From an uncultured Reyranella sp. (GTDB lineage Bacteria > Pseudomonadota > Alphaproteobacteria > Reyranellales > Reyranellaceae): DNA of 64,000 bases. A program made the translations under genes and the position numbers. Of this stretch, positions 39,657-49,840 are shown one piece after another. Below the pieces are notes generated by a model. The model made no database searches. It was not told the origin of the DNA and saw only the letters and a program-made list of their open reading frames with translations. The first letter of the stretch is position 1, and the number at the start of each line of letters is the position of its first letter. The stretch is from positions 1 to 64,000 of the forward strand of contig NZ_CAMFKM010000014.1 in assembly GCF_945957355.1 (NCBI RefSeq). Reading direction: 5' to 3'.

Positions 39657-42600
39657 GGCGTGCTTTCTCCCGCCCCGCCCCGCGCCGGGTGCAGCGGCGT
39701 ATCGAGCGGCACACCGCGCAGGCGGCGACCGAGCCGGTCGAAGGCGAGATAGATGACGGGCGTCGTGAACAGCGTCAGCAGCTGGCTGACGATCAGGCCG
39801 CCGACGATGGTGAGCCCGAGTGGCTGGCGCAGCTCGGACCCCGTGCCGGTACCAAGCATCAGCGGCAGCGCGCCGACCAGGGCCGCGACCGTGGTCATCA
39901 GGATCGGCCGGAAGCGCAGCAGGCAGGCCTGGTGGATCGCCTCGCGCGGTGCCTTGCCCTCATTGCGCTCGGCATCGAGGGCGAAGTCGATCATCATGAT
40001 CGCGTTCTTCTTCACGATGCCGATCAGCAGCACGATGCCGATGATGGCCACGATGCTGAGGTCGGTGCCGGCCAGCATCAGGGCGAGCAGTGCGCCGATG
40101 CCGGCCGAGGGCAGGGTCGAGAGGATTGTGATCGGGTGGATGTAGCTCTCGTAGAGCACCCCGAGCACGATATAGACGGTGACGATGGCGGCCAGGATCA
40201 GCAGGAGCTGGCTGTCGAGCGACCTCTGAAAGGCCAGCGCCGCGCCCTGGAAGTGCGTCGTGATCGAGCGCGGCATGCCGATCTCGCGCTGCGCGGCGAC
40301 GATGGCGTCGACCGCCTGCCCCAGCGCGAAGCCCGGGGCGAGATTGAAGGAGATGGTGGTGGCCGGGAACTGGCCGAACCGGTCGAGCCGCAGTGGAGCC
40401 GTGCGCTCCTCGAACGTCGCGATCGCCGACAGCGGCACCTGCTTGCCGGCCGTCGAGCTCGGCAGATACAGGTCGTTGAGCGAGGCGAGCGAGCGCGACA
40501 GCTCGGGTTCGACCTCGTAGATGACCCGATACTGGTTGGACTGCGTGTAGACGGTCGAAACGATGCGCTGGCCGAACACGTCGTAGAGCACGTTGTCGAC
40601 CGTTGCGGCCGTAATACCGAACCGCGCCGCGGCATCCCTGTCGATCCTGATGAACATCGACAGTCCCTTGTTCTGCAGGTCGCTGGTCACGTCGACGAGT
40701 TCCGGCTGCTTTGCCAGCCGGTCCATCAGGCGCGGCACCCAGGTATCGAACTCGGCGGCATTGGCCGATTCCAGGACGAACTGGTACTGCGTGCGGCTCA
40801 CCGTCGAATCGATGGTGAGATCCTGCGCCGGCTGCATGAAGAGGGAGATGCCCTGGACTCCCGAGGTCTCGCGCTGCAATCGGCGGATCACCTGGGCCGC
40901 CGTCAGCGAACGCTCGCTGCGGGGCTTGAGGTTGATCAGCATGCGACCGGAATTGAGCGTGGGGTTGGTGCCGTCGACGCCCACGAAGGACGTGAGGCTT
41001 TCGACGTCGGGATCCTCGAGGATCGCCTCTGCGAGGGCGCGCTGGCGCTGGCTCATCGCGGCGAAGGAGACGCTCTGCGGTCCCTCGGTCACGGCCTGGA
41101 TCAGCCCGGTGTCCTGCACCGGGAAGAAGCCCTTGGGAATGACGATGTAGAGCACCACCGTGAGCACCACCGTACCGACCGCGACCAGCAGCGTCAGCGC
41201 CTGGTGCCGGAACACCACGACCAGGCAGCGGTCGTAGAAGCGGATGACACGGGAGAACCAGCCCGTGCCCATCGTTTCCGACTCGACGGCGGCGGGCGCC
41301 TTTTCGTGCGTCACGGCCGCCGCCTCATGCGGCCGCTGACGCAGGAACTGAGCGCACAGCATCGGCACGAGGGTCAGCGATACGACGGCGGAGATCAGGA
41401 TGGTGACGGACAGGGTGACGGCGAACTCGCTGAACAGCCGGCCGACCACGTCGCTCATGAACAGCAGCGGGATCAGCACCGCGATCAGCGAAACGGTGAG
41501 CGACACGACCGTGAAGGCGATCTGTTTCGAGCCCTTGAGCGCCGCCGTCTTCGGATCGTCGCCGCGCTCGATGTAGCGCGCGATGTTCTCGATCATGACG
41601 ATCGCGTCGTCGACCACGAAACCCGTGGCGATGGTGAGCGCCATGATCGACAGGTTGTTGAGGCTGAAATCGGCGAGGTACATCGCCGCCAGCGTGCCGA
41701 CGAGCGACAGCGGCACCGACAGGCTCGGGATGACCGTCGCCCGCGCATCGCCCAGGAAGGCGAAGATCACGGCCACGACCAGGACGACCGCGAAACCCAG
41801 TTCGATCTGCACGTCGCGGACAGAGGCGCGGATGGTCAGGGTGCGGTCGGTGAGGACGGTGATGTCCAGCGAGTTGGGCAATGTCTCGCGCAGGGTCGGC
41901 AGCAGGGCCTTGATGCGATCCACGACCTCGATGACGTTGGCGCCGGGCTGCCGCTGGACGTTCACGATCACGGCCTGGGTGTTATTCGCCCAGGCGGCGA
42001 TCCGGGTGTTCTCCTGCCCCTCCTCCACCGTCGCCACGTCGCGAACGCGCACCGGCGCGCCGTTGCGATAGGCCACGACGATGTCGCGGAAGGTATCGGG
42101 ATCGGTGATCTGATCGTTGGCGTTGATGGTGAGTGCGCGCGCCGGCCCGTCGAAATTCCCCTTGGGCGTGTTGACGTTGGCGTTGGAGATCGTGGTGCGC
42201 AGGTCGTCGATGTTGAGGCCGTAGGCGGCGAGCGCGGTCGGGTTGGCGCGGATGCGCACGCCGGGCTTCTGACCACCCTCGAGATTCACCAGACCGACTC
42301 CGGGAAGCTGCGAGATCTTCTGCGCCAGCCGGGTGTCCACGAGGTCGTGGACCCTGGTGAGCGGCTCGGTCTTCGAGGTGACGGCAAGCGTCAGCACCGG
42401 CGCATCGGCCGGATTGAACTTGGCATAGATCGGCGGCGACGGCAGGTCGCCCGGCAGCAGGTTGCCGGCGGCGTTGATCGCCGCCTGGACCTGCTGCTCG
42501 GCGACGTCGAGGCCGAGCTTGAGGTCGAACTGCAGGGTGATCGACGAGGCGCCGGCCGAGCTGGTCGACGTCATCTGGTTGAGCCCCGGCATCTGGCCGA

Positions 42601-42811
42601 ACTGGCGTTCAAGCGGTGCGGTGACCGAGGTCGTCATCACCTCCGGGCTGGCGCCCGGATAGATCGTGAGGACCCGGATCGTCGGATAGTCGACCTGCGG
42701 CAGGGCCGACAGTGGCAGGAAGCGATACGCTATGATGCCGACCAGCATGATCGCGACCATGAAAAGCGAGGTCGCGACGGGCCGTTCGATGAAGATCCGC
42801 GACGGATTCAT
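39653..42811 (-). CDS. mdtB: RND efflux transporter, MdtB-like
   Basis: The 1052-residue pump protein has [78 protein letters not shown] and [15 protein letters not shown], all typical of MdtB. It works with the following MdtC-like subunit and the upstream membrane-fusion protein to export drugs or bile-salt-like compounds, driven by protons. The start lies 13 bases after the membrane-fusion gene stop; the stop overlaps the mdtC-like ATG. Confidence 0.93.
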
Positions 42812-42823
42812 GTCGCGGCCGCT

Positions 42824-44128
42824 CTACTGGTTGGTCTGCGTGGCGGGGCGCCCGACGCCGCTTCCGGGGACAGCTCCAGTACCACCGTTGACCTGCTGGC
42901 GCCGGCGCTGCCCCTCTGCCGGCGGCTGGGCGTCGGGCGGCGCGTTGGCGACCGGCGGTCCCGCCGAGGCACGCGGCGCCGGCACGGGCTTGCGGATCTT
43001 GGCGCCGTCACGCAGGCGGTCGACACCGTCGATCACGACCTGATCGCCGACCTTCAGGCCCTTGAGGATTGCCACCTTATCCCCATCGGTCGCGCCGAGC
43101 TCCACGACCCGGATCTCCACCGTATCGTCGGCCTTCGCGAGATAGACGAACGTTCCGGGTTGGCCGCGCTGGACGGCCGCAACGGGGACCACGACGGCAT
43201 CCTTCACCGTGTCGGCCAGCAGGCGGACGTTCACGAACTGGTTGGGGAACAGGGATTCGTCGGCATTGTCGAAGATCGCCCGCAGCTTCACGGTGCCGGT
43301 CGTGATGTCGATCACGTTGTCCGTGGTGTCGAGGCGACCGACGGCCAGCTCGTTCTTCTGCGCGCGATCGAGCACGCGCACTTCGAGGTTTTCACCGGTC
43401 TTCAACCGTTGCCGCACCAGCGGCAGGGAATCTTCGGGGATCGTGAACAGGACCGAGATCGGCTGCACCTGAATGATCACGCAGATGCTGCTGGCGTCAC
43501 CCATCGTGACGTAGTTGCCCTTGTCGACCATGCGCAGGCCGATCTTGCCGGTGAGCGGGGCGACGATCCGCGTGTAGGTGACGTTGAGCTTGGCCGCATC
43601 GACCTGCGCCTGGTCGATGACCAGTGCCGCCTCGTACTGGCGGACCAGCGCGACCTGCGTGTCGTATTGCTGCCGCGCGATCGAGTCCTGCTGGACGAGC
43701 TTGCGGTAGCGTTCGAGATCCATCTGCGCATTCTTGAGCAGCGCCTCGTCGCGCTGCTGCTGGCCCAGGGCCTGCTGCAGGGCGACGTCGTAGGGCCGCG
43801 AATCGACCAAGGCCAGCAGGTCGCCCTGCTTCACCATCTGGCCTTCCTTGAAATAGACGTCGACGAGCTGGCCGGTGATCTGGGTCTTCACGTTGACGGT
43901 CTGGAGCGGCGTCACCGTACCCAGCGCGCGCAGCACGATGGGAATGTCGCCCTTGGCCGCCGTCGCCAGTCCCACAGGGACGGCCGCCCCGGCGGCGAAG
44001 CGCCCACCGGGTCCCTGGCGTGCAGGCGGCGCAGAGCCGGACTGCGAAATGTACCAGCCCGCGCCAGCCACGATGGCCAGCCCGAAACCGATCCCGAGGA
44101 GGGTTCGCAGCCGCTTCATTCGTCCCAT
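42824..44128 (-). CDS. mdtA: RND membrane-fusion protein, MdtA-like
   Basis: The 434-residue periplasmic adaptor has one N-terminal hydrophobic anchor ([18 protein letters not shown]), a lipoyl/barrel-sandwich domain ([20 protein letters not shown]), a helical hairpin ([19 protein letters not shown]) and the second half [20 protein letters not shown]. The tail is Pro/Ala/Gln-rich. It links the RND pumps to the outer-membrane channel. A second in-frame ATG is at 44119. Gene order adaptor, MdtB-like, MdtC-like, outer-membrane factor is the classical mdtABC arrangement with its own channel. Confidence 0.92.
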
Positions 44129-44278
44129 GCACTCCAGAAAACCCAGCCCGTTTCATGTACGAGCTGAAGCTGCGGAGTCTCCCCCACGTAAATGGCGGAC
44201 GCAAGGCGACAGGCGCGGACCGGAGAATGCAACGCCCAAGAGGCCGGAAAGACCCCTCGGACGCTACGGGCAGTTCGC

Positions 44279-46399: not shown

Positions 46400-47716
46400 A
46401 TGTCGCGCGCTACACTGTTCGCCACGGCGGCTGGCTGGCTCCTCGGGGTCCTGCTGCTGCTGCCCGCGACGGTGTTTGCCCAGGCGTCAGCGGATGGGCT
46501 CACGGGGGAACTGAAACGCTTCCTGCACGATGAAGCGACGCTCGTCGTGCACAGCCGCAGCTACCTGTTCGACCGCCAGAATCTGGCGCCGCCCAACACG
46601 GCGGCAGCCGTGACCGGCGGGTGGATCGGCCTGCAGACCGGATGGTTCTACGACACGCTGCAACTCGGCGCGGTGGGATACACGACGCAACCGCTCTGGG
46701 CGCCGCAGGGCAACGGCACCACTTCCAACGGCACGTTGCTTCTCAAGCCGGGAGGATACGGCTTCTTCACCCTCGGCCAGGCCTATGCCTCGGCGCGCTG
46801 GCAGAAGCAGACCGTCACCGTGTTCCGGCAGTATCTCGATGAGCTCGAGGTGAATCCGCGCGACGACTGCCAGCTTCCCCAGACCTTCGAGGCCTACGCG
46901 CTGCGCGGCGTCCTCGGACCGGTCACCTATTTCGCGGGCTACGTCGCCGCCATGAAACCGCGCGACTATTCGGCCTTCATCAACATGGGCGAAGCGGCCG
47001 GCGCGCCGAACGTGAACAAGGGCATGGGCCTCTTCAGCGCGAAGTACGGCAGCATGAATGAGCTGCAGGTCCGCGCCTCGACCTATTATGTCCCGGATAT
47101 CCTCTGGTCGAGCTACGGCGATGTCGGCGGCACGATCAGGGTGAACGATGATCTGCGCGTCCAGCTCGCAGCGCAGTTCGCCGTGCAGGGCAGCAACGGC
47201 ATGAACCTCCTCACCGGCCAGCCCTTCAGCACCTTCTGGGGCGGCCTCCGCGCCGACACCTTCTGGGGACCGATGGCTTTCCGCCTGTCCTACACGCAGG
47301 TCGGCTCGGCGGCGAGCTGGCGTAACCCCTACGGTATCTTCATCGGCTACAACAAGATGCAGTCGCTGGACTTCAACCGCGCCGGGGAAATGGCGGTGAC
47401 GGCCGGCGCCAGCTACGACTTCAAGGGCGCCGGTCTTCCTGGCGTGGTCTTCCTGGCGACGGCGACCTATGGCGGCAACGCGGTCAACCCTGCCACCGGG
47501 GCCGGCCTGTCGACCAACTGGGAATACGATCTCGAACTCGCGATCAGAGGCGACGCCATGGACAACGCCCCCGACTGGCTGAAGCCGTTCAACCTGCGCA
47601 ACCGGGTCGCCTTCGTCGATCAGTTCCAGGGCGACCGGACGCTCAGCTCCTCCTTCACGGAGTACCGCATCCAGTTGAACTACGAGCTGACCTGGAAGGG
47701 TCCGCGCCTGCGTTAG
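46400..47716 (+). CDS. OprD-like outer-membrane porin
   Basis: The 438-residue protein has a signal peptide (WLLGVLLLLPATVFAQA) and a mature part starting LKRFLHDEATLVVHSRSYLFDRQN, close to the DxxxxLxLRNYYFDR opening of the OprD family. Alternating beta strands run to a C-terminal strand YRIQLNYELTWKGPRLR. It is likely an outer-membrane channel for a small nutrient. The stop overlaps the CoA-transferase stop by four bases on the other strand. Confidence 0.8.
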   Translation: MSRATLFATAAGWLLGVLLLLPATVFAQASADGLTGELKRFLHDEATLVVHSRSYLFDRQNLAPPNTAAAVTGGWIGLQTGWFYDTLQLGAVGYTTQPLWAPQGNGTTSNGTLLLKPGGYGFFTLGQAYASARWQKQTVTVFRQYLDELEVNPRDDCQLPQTFEAYALRGVLGPVTYFAGYVAAMKPRDYSAFINMGEAAGAPNVNKGMGLFSAKYGSMNELQVRASTYYVPDILWSSYGDVGGTIRVNDDLRVQLAAQFAVQGSNGMNLLTGQPFSTFWGGLRADTFWGPMAFRLSYTQVGSAASWRNPYGIFIGYNKMQSLDFNRAGEMAVTAGASYDFKGAGLPGVVFLATATYGGNAVNPATGAGLSTNWEYDLELAIRGDAMDNAPDWLKPFNLRNRVAFVDQFQGDRTLSSSFTEYRIQLNYELTWKGPRLR

Positions 47717-48906
47717 ACGACCTGGCCGGCGCGCATCTCGGCGATGTCGGTGTCGGAGTAGCCCGCTTCCTTCAGCACCTCGTCGGTGTGCTGGCCGAGC
47801 GTCGCCGGTGGGCGGTCGATCGAGCCGCCGCCATGCTCGAGGCGGAAGCCCGAGCCCACGACCTTGATCGGCCCGTGCTCGGTCTCGACGGTCTGCAGCA
47901 CCGTGCGATGCTTGAACAGATCGAGTTGCGCCGTCTCCGGGATCGAGTGGACGCGGCCGGCCGGGACGTCGGCCTTGGCGAAGCGCTCGATCCAGGTGCC
48001 CGAATCCTCGGTCATCATCGCCCCTTCGACGATTTCGTGCAGGGCGGTGTTGTTGGCGATGCGTGTCGCCCAGTCGACGAAGCGCGGATCGTCCAGCACC
48101 TCCTCGCGGCCCAGCACCTTCATCAGGCGCTTGAACTGCGGATCGGTCATCACCGCCAGCACGATCCAGCCGTCGCGGGTCTTGAAGAGATTGCCCGTGG
48201 GCTTGCGCGTCACCGACAGGTTGGCGGCCTGGCCGTGCACGCGGCCGGTCATCATGTGCTCGGTGAACTGCTGAGCGAGATAGCCCATCACGGCGTCGAT
48301 CATGGCCACGTCGACGAGTTGGCCCTTGCCGGTGTGCGTGCGCTGGTACAGCGCCGAGGCGATGCCCAGCGCCGCGGTCGCGCCCGACATCACGTCGGCG
48401 CCGGCAAAGCCCACCCTCGTCGGACCGTTGTTCTCGAAGCCGGTGATCGACATCAGGCCCGACATGGCCTGGATCATGCCGTCGAAGGCAGCGGTCTTGG
48501 ACTCAGGGCCGACCTGGCCGAAGCCCGACACGGCGCAGTAGATCAGCCGGGGATTGATCTTCTTCAGCGTCTCGTAGCCGATGCCGAGCTTGTCCATCAC
48601 GCCGGGACGGAAATTCTCGACCACGACGTCGGCCGTCTCGACCAGGCGTTTCACGACCTCGATCGCCTTGGGCTGCTTGAGGTCGAGGGTGATCGACCGC
48701 TTGTTGCCGTTCACCGCGACCCAGGGCGCCGCGAGGCCGCGCTTCTCCCAGTCATTGGACCGGGTACCGAAGCGCATGTCGTCGCCTTCGCGCGACTCGA
48801 TCTTGACGACGTCGGCCCCAAGCAGGGCAAGCTGGTAGGAACTGTAGGGTCCCGCCAGTACACGCGTGAAATCGACGACCTTTACGCCCGTGAACGGCTT
48901 GCTCAT
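47713..48906 (-). CDS. CaiB/BaiF-family (type III) CoA transferase
   Basis: The 397-residue protein shows the type III CoA-transferase layout: GVKVVDFTRVLAGPYSSYQLALLGADVVKIE, WVAVNGNKRSITLDLK, VVVENFRPGVMDKLGI, and the aspartate in AFDGMIQAMSG. It would move CoA between an acyl-CoA donor and an acceptor acid. GGAG is four bases before the ATG, which follows the stop of the predicted selenoprotein by only seven bases, so the two are almost certainly one transcript. Substrate unknown. Confidence 0.9.
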   Translation of the reverse strand: MSKPFTGVKVVDFTRVLAGPYSSYQLALLGADVVKIESREGDDMRFGTRSNDWEKRGLAAPWVAVNGNKRSITLDLKQPKAIEVVKRLVETADVVVENFRPGVMDKLGIGYETLKKINPRLIYCAVSGFGQVGPESKTAAFDGMIQAMSGLMSITGFENNGPTRVGFAGADVMSGATAALGIASALYQRTHTGKGQLVDVAMIDAVMGYLAQQFTEHMMTGRVHGQAANLSVTRKPTGNLFKTRDGWIVLAVMTDPQFKRLMKVLGREEVLDDPRFVDWATRIANNTALHEIVEGAMMTEDSGTWIERFAKADVPAGRVHSIPETAQLDLFKHRTVLQTVETEHGPIKVVGSGFRLEHGGGSIDRPPATLGQHTDEVLKEAGYSDTDIAEMRAGQVV

Positions 48907-48913
48907 GTCACTC

Positions 48914-49840
48914 CTACGCCACGCCCGCCTGCTTGCGCTGGTTGAGCGCCACCTGCTTGACCTTGTCGAACTCGGCCCGCCGCTTGGCGACCTCTTCGGG
49001 CGGCATGCGCTCGATGTTGTTGTAGTCGTTCTTCCAGTCCCCGTCGTCGGTCCAGCGCAACGGCGACTGTACCGTCGTGCGCGGGCCGATGGCGCTTTCC
49101 AGCACCTTCAGCGCCAGATCGAGCGTGAAGCGCTGGGTATCGGGCTCGTGCGGCTTGCCGCACGAATTGCCGAGCGGGAAATCGCTGAACAGGAAGCGGG
49201 GCACGCCCACCCATTCGACGATGTCCTTCGCCGCCCCCATCACCACGGTGGGGATGCCGTTCCGTTCGAGATATCGTGCGACCAGACTCACGGTCTGGTG
49301 ACAGACGGGTCATGTAGGGACAAGCAGCGCGGCGTCGACCTGGTCCTGGCGGCAGCGCGCCAGGATTTCCGGTGCGTCGGTCTCCAGCGTGACGCGCTGG
49401 CTGCGATTGGTCGGCGCGCCGTGGAAGCGAGCCGCCAGCTTGAAGCGACCCTGATTGGCGAACTCGCGTATCAGCGGCAGCGGGAACCAGGTGTTGCTGT
49501 CCGTCGCCGTCGTATGCTTGCGGTCGTAGCCGATGTGGGAGATGCGGGTGTCGTGGTCCTGGGCGGTATCGCCCGAATAGACCGAATAGAACTTGGCCGA
49601 GGCGTTGTAGAGCGCGCCCGGACCCTGGTCGCCCTTGTCCGGTTGATAGGGAGCCGCCGTCGAGATCAGCGCCAGCGTGCTGTCCTTCAACGGCTTTTTC
49701 AGGGGCGTGAACGGGGCATCGGTGTAGTGCGCCCAGCGATAGGGATTGTCGTAGCCCAGGGCGAGGTAATACTCGCGAGTCCGGCGCATGTATTCGAGCG
49801 GCGCGTCGTAATCCGGCGCGAAATCTGTCGTATCGACCAT
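48914..49840 (-). CDS. GrdB-like selenoprotein with in-frame UGA (Sec177)
   Basis: Read through the UGA at 49310-49312, this is one 308-residue protein. The N-terminal part has STLALISTAAPYQPDKGDQG and RISHIGYDRKHT; the centre reads DAALLVPT-U-PVCHQTVSLVARYL; then NGIPTVVMGAAKDIVEWVG and FLFSDFPLGNSCGKP. This follows the selenoprotein B family of glycine/betaine/sarcosine reductases (GrdB), where a U-x-x-C pair is the active site; here Sec177 and Cys180. Frame is kept exactly across the stop, and similarity to the family continues on both sides. It is shorter than clostridial GrdB. No GrdA, GrdC or GrdD genes are visible, so its reaction is unknown. Confidence 0.85.
49281..49299 (-). promoter_or_regulatory. 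Candidate bacterial SECIS hairpin
   Basis: Ten bases after the UGA codon, ACCAGAC (49299-49293) and GTCTGGT (49287-49281) form a perfect 7-bp stem closing the loop CGTGA. The loop carries G in its second position followed by U, and starts 17 bases after the UGA. Bacterial SECIS elements are described as a short stem-loop just downstream of UGA, with a G among the first loop bases and about 16-37 bases to the loop; this fits. It lies inside the coding sequence. Confidence 0.82.

Follow-up and report, generated by a model that had tools for sequence, protein, structure and literature searches.

We find that an uncultured Reyranella sp. encodes, at positions 49840-48914 on the minus strand of the 64,000-nucleotide stretch of DNA analysed here (the window), a PrdB/GrdB-like protein whose 308 codons are read through a single in-frame TGA, and that this codon, UGA 177, is almost certainly decoded as selenocysteine (Sec), as judged by sequence comparison. 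For Sec insertion, this degree of certainty is the limit of what comparative genomics can give. Leaving its chemistry aside, we consider it likely that the gene product is a selenoprotein, that it is a lone PrdB-like protein and that it is functionally tied to a CoA-transferase.

Under the standard code the gene falls into two minus-strand open reading frames that share one frame, 49840-49310 (176 residues) and 49291-48914, and the TGA at 49312-49310 is the sole in-frame stop between them, just as the original prediction described; a standard-code reading makes such genes appear as two broken frames. Reading through to the TAG at 48916-48914 (minus strand) yields a protein of 308 residues with LLVPT-U-PVCHQTVSL around U177, including the predicted PT-U-PVCHQTV, and the second residue of its UxxC motif, Cys180, is encoded at 49303-49301 (minus strand). 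Among 84,980 species genomes scanned, we found 80 relatives of 66-97% identity, the nearest from Reyranella, and the protein could be aligned nearly end to end with all of them. Codon 177 is TGA in 58 of these relatives and TGC or TGT in the remaining 22, so the Cys that the original prediction expected at this column in some relatives is there, while homologues that truly end at the UGA are not: none of the 80 carries an additional in-frame stop. On a protein tree built without the codon-177 column, the TGA/Cys label changes three times. Together, the TGA and Cys forms, the lack of further stops and the three changes on the tree rule out chance, an error in sequencing and gene decay.

The SECIS hairpin lies at 49299-49281 on the minus strand and consists of a 7-bp stem, ACCAGAC/GTCTGGT, closed by a CGTGA loop (5' arm 49299-49293, loop 49292-49288, 3' arm 49287-49281); in the window gene the stem is perfect, and exactly 10 bases separate it from the TGA. 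Among the 59 TGA genes, the window gene included, codons +5 to +10 had a mean synonymous diversity of 0.0064, the lowest of the 303 six-codon windows of the gene, compared with an ordinary value of 0.474 (median 0.427) for the same codons in the 22 Cys genes. Each stem position could pair in 72-100% of 60 distinct sequences, paralogues included, compared with 15-35% of the same sequences when the partner was slid by 1-3 bases as a control, and most stem positions showed several pair types with both sides changed (CG, TA, GC; GC, CG, AT). The hairpin is thus, as far as these substitution patterns indicate, under selection only in TGA genes, and the synonymous freeze and covarying stem bear out the stem and loop originally proposed. 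Folding energy was dropped as SECIS evidence, since the z-scores (-0.1 to -2.0; -1.66 for the window hairpin) were unremarkable and the sequence is GC-rich; the evidence for the hairpin is its conservation, not its stability. Rfam gave no relevant match.

The genome behind the window (5.79 Mb, 99.9% complete) also holds the SelABCD set on which the original prediction had made its case depend. Contig C17 holds selA, selB and a tRNA-Sec gene, whose anticodon TCA was called by ARAGORN, and contig C11 holds selD; all four score over their curated cut-offs. Across the 37 genomes behind the relatives, SelB scored over its cut-off in all 15 with the TGA form and in 19 of the 22 with the Cys form, the three genomes lacking SelB all having Cys forms. 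We set this co-occurrence aside as proof of Sec; it is consistent with Sec but not significant (p 0.26) and, as most Cys genomes have SelB too, not decisive. That the TGA is instead a true stop, ending a 176-residue protein that is followed by a separate 125-residue restart at the GTG at 49291 in a split gene or decaying pseudogene, accounts for the two frames under the standard code but is extremely unlikely, given the same TGA in the relatives beside Cys and no other stop, the conservation of both halves at the protein level, a hairpin selected only in TGA genes and a genome that decodes Sec. Altogether, the central claim of the original prediction, a protein of the GrdB/PrdB family with a UGA-encoded Sec and a SECIS element, is upheld by the Cys at its column, the sel genes and the conserved hairpin.

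The best NCBIfam match of the protein was TIGR04483 (PrdB), with 79.8 bits over residues 42-249 and profile positions 18-220 of 238, against a cut-off of 300; GrdH, GrdF and GrdB followed at 38-43 bits, against cut-offs of 65-800 (GrdB 38 against 602). Since all scores are under the curated subfamily or equivalog cut-offs, the protein is PrdB-like but belongs to neither the PrdB nor the GrdB equivalog. Pfam PF07355 (GRDB) reached 23.8 bits over residues 44-176 with Cys read for U, against a gathering score of 22. The label GrdB-like, as originally given, is right for the superfamily, but the protein is nearer to PrdB than to GrdB. In an alignment with the two clostridial PrdB of Terrisporobacter and Peptoclostridium, U177 coincides with the residue from their in-frame TGA and Cys180 with the second Cys; columns 177 (U or C) and 180 (C) are invariant there, and Cys180 is also invariant in the family alignment. 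Public annotation names the plasmid-borne Cys relatives 'glycine/sarcosine/betaine reductase selenoprotein B family protein', and the 'glycine reductase' in this name is misleading. A sequence search of the PDB gave no match to the window protein. Its predicted structure (mean pLDDT 77.4) had a best Foldseek E value of 0.013 (KaiC) and a best VIA-align Z score of 8.7 (LacI-type domains); we rejected a structural kinship with either, the matches of this model probably reflecting a common alpha/beta arrangement.

Neither of the classical partner families was found in the 99.9% complete Reyranella genome: PrdA/GrdE (PF09338) was missing in a search for which a Terrisporobacter plasmid served as positive control, and GrdA (PF04723) in one for which a Peptoclostridium plasmid did so, its TGA included. 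The original expectation of a chemistry differing from that of the clostridial glycine reductases is a reasonable supposition. A true subunit of a D-proline, glycine, sarcosine or betaine reductase, with its partners encoded elsewhere in the genome, would fit a homology that spans almost the entire PrdB profile and a UxxC column common to both; this is nonetheless very improbable, as the scores are far under the equivalog cut-offs and the two partner families, both positive in the clostridial records, are not found in the genome.

The original description of the protein as stand-alone holds for GrdA and PrdA/GrdE, but it overlooked that the gene forms a two-gene unit with a CoA-transferase. 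A family III (CaiB/BaiF) CoA-transferase gene (PF02515, 395 bits) lies at 47713-48906 on the same, minus strand, 7 bp beyond the stop codon of the selenoprotein gene, and 71 of 78 scorable relatives, whether Sec or Cys forms (17/21 for the Cys forms), likewise have a CoA-transferase gene immediately downstream in the same orientation, with partners that go down to about 50% identity with the copy in the window. This arrangement suggests that the two genes are probably co-transcribed as an operon. In a class-wide sample, CoA_transf_3 was the commonest family adjoining the relatives, found in 9 of 93 adjacent genes and in no more than 1 of 93 distant ones (p ~0.009), followed by luciferase-like monooxygenases (6; control 3) and then acyl-CoA dehydrogenases (4). 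A tripartite tricarboxylate (TctC) receptor, identified in one representative, lies upstream and divergent in many relatives; neighbour calls at distant loci are approximate, having been made with a simple GC-frame ORF caller. The Reyranella genome has some 36 CoA-transferase genes (39 matches), and the one in the window scores far under every substrate-specific model. More distant paralogue groups, among them that of the third TGA gene described below, lack the link to a CoA-transferase, so the role of CoA may be limited to the subfamily of the window gene. We found no paper in the open-licence literature that links a selenoprotein to CaiB, and as far as that literature shows, the conserved two-gene unit is apparently unremarked, as is the stand-alone setting. 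The partner offers a concrete handle, since the substrate of either gene product should reveal that of the other.

The window gene is not the sole gene of its kind in the genome but one of three PrdB-like genes with an in-frame TGA; the others are at C3:87590-88429 (locus L132) and C14:137730-138329 (locus L133). A genome search with PF07355 listed one paralogue, presumably because the TGA splits the frames of the others, and a search with the family alignment found all three. Directly upstream of the C3 gene is an AhpD-like gene (carboxymuconolactone decarboxylase family; L132:6998-7552) that likewise carries an in-frame TGA (GCPF-U), followed by a 7-bp stem of its own with CGTGT in the loop, so that two predicted selenoproteins stand side by side; a TctC receptor, a flavoprotein and a CoA-transferase are encoded downstream of the C3 gene. 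With three TGA paralogues and the AhpD-like TGA gene, Reyranella should be useful for the study of selenium use outside anaerobes. The third paralogue (L133:7641-8807; C14:137.6-138.8 kb) reads U-P-A-C-T-R-A-V and has a C-terminal extension of more than 100 residues past the PrdB-like part; its hairpin, GCGCGC/GCGCGC with a CGTGG loop, is at the same distance from the TGA. Loci of this U-P-x-C-T-R-A type (L172-L187, L120, L123, L125) are often near genes for Sec machinery, glutathione transferases or glutaredoxins, the 59 neighbours in other genomes including four SelD-like proteins of the AIR-synthase type, two SelB and one SelA. These neighbours suggest that the subfamily may act in selenium handling.

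In four further relatives (L167, L169, L170 and L171) the motif is U-P-L-D-H-Q-T or C-P-L-D-H-Q-T, with Asp for the second Cys and Sec in three of the four; the U-P-L-D forms (L169-L171) suggest that the second thiol is perhaps dispensable in some branches. A UAG-coded Sec in L112 (G108:C321) was considered and rejected: the TAG is 90 columns ahead of the Sec column, which is TGC, and probably marks a copy that is broken or wrongly assembled. In-frame TAGs also occur in G108:C471 and G117:C59, and the rejection covers L112; L114, a class-wide match, has TGC at the Sec column. Elsewhere in the window, a 1492-codon open frame at 39689-44167 on the plus strand runs antisense to other predicted genes and is probably not a gene, since long antisense frames are expected in GC-rich DNA.

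As to the chemistry, we tentatively propose a stand-alone selenol reductase that would act on a CoA-activated or carboxylate substrate with no pyruvoyl subunit. SelB most probably delivers Sec-tRNA(UCA) to UGA codon 177, guided by the adjoining hairpin, to give one 308-residue protein with U-P-V-C as its putative active-site motif. The attack by a selenolate is the accepted scheme for GrdB and PrdB; here, selenolate 177 would attack the substrate carbon beside the carbonyl and displace the leaving group, Cys180 would attack the selenium and release the reduced product, and a cellular thiol would reset the Se-S bond. In place of the absent pyruvoyl group, activation would come from a CoA thioester that the CoA-transferase makes or recycles, and with the pyruvoyl subunit missing such activation would explain why the CoA-transferase is fixed beside the gene. 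What we infer here is the joint transcription of the two genes, the substrate, which way the electrons flow and the part played by the thioester. Against the mechanism, U is kept with Asp for Cys180 in L169-L171, so a simple U-C resolving pair is insufficient. Reyranella is apparently aerobic. It is conceivable, with still less confidence, that the protein represents a pyruvoyl-free, CoA-dependent branch of PrdB/GrdB in aerobes, in which the CoA-transferase would load an alpha-substituted acid and the selenoprotein would reductively remove the substituent; if true, such CoA-dependent reductive removal would be a selenium chemistry for which we found no description in aerobes.

The main rival to a CoA-activated mechanism is a general thiol or peroxide reductase, in which the UxxC motif would be a redox-active dithiol directed against oxidants and the CoA-transferase a mere metabolic neighbour. 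We regard this Sec-dependent thiol-disulfide or peroxide reductase as possible but doubtful. It draws on the UxxC motif itself, on the Reyranella paralogue that stands right behind the AhpD-like TGA gene and on the third paralogue group, with its neighbouring glutathione transferase, glutaredoxin and Sec-machinery genes. However, sequence comparison gave no significant match to the thioredoxin fold (Pfam Thioredoxin_3 was sub-threshold, E 0.14) and none stood out for the predicted structure (mean pLDDT 77), the U-P-L-D relatives do without the second thiol, and the CoA-transferase is kept adjacent in 71 of the 78 scorable relatives. The fixed neighbour is what the proposed CoA-activated selenol reductase would account for.

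The family was found in 27 of 240 sampled Alphaproteobacteria genomes (~11%), in the majority of which its genes have an in-frame TGA; an early genome survey had listed one selenoprotein family only for this class (PMC1794560). The novelty implied by the original prediction was overstated, for sequences of PrdB-type UxxC selenoproteins from the surface ocean have been available since 2005, according to the portions of the two marine studies drawn on here, which count 42 such genes in the Sargasso Sea (2005; PMC1088965) and, in the GOS metagenomes, 235 forms with Sec and 110 with Cys (2008; PMC2398784) and class them as proline reductase PrdB. No reported function for a stand-alone PrdB/GrdB-like member was found in the open-licence literature.

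Compared with known systems, the window protein shares with GrdB, GrdF and GrdH the PF07355 domain on residues 44-176, but the match covers only the C-terminal part of the 430-residue GrdB models, and neither GrdA nor GrdE was detected in the Reyranella genome. With PrdB (TIGR04483) the likeness is closer, comprising homology over nearly the full length, Sec at the same column and a UxxCH motif; the window protein differs in its longer N- and C-termini, in its 27-29% identity with the clostridial proteins and 79.8 bits against the required 300, and in having no detected PrdA partner, with a CoA-transferase gene as neighbour in place of prdA and prdC. It also resembles the marine 'proline reductase PrdB' of the Sargasso and GOS data, pfam07355 UxxC selenoproteins that are abundant in the surface ocean. 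Likened by their published description, in the parts of those papers used here, the marine proteins are likely to be of the same subfamily as the window gene, and similar selenoproteins are, by the same accounts, among the commonest in ocean metagenomes.
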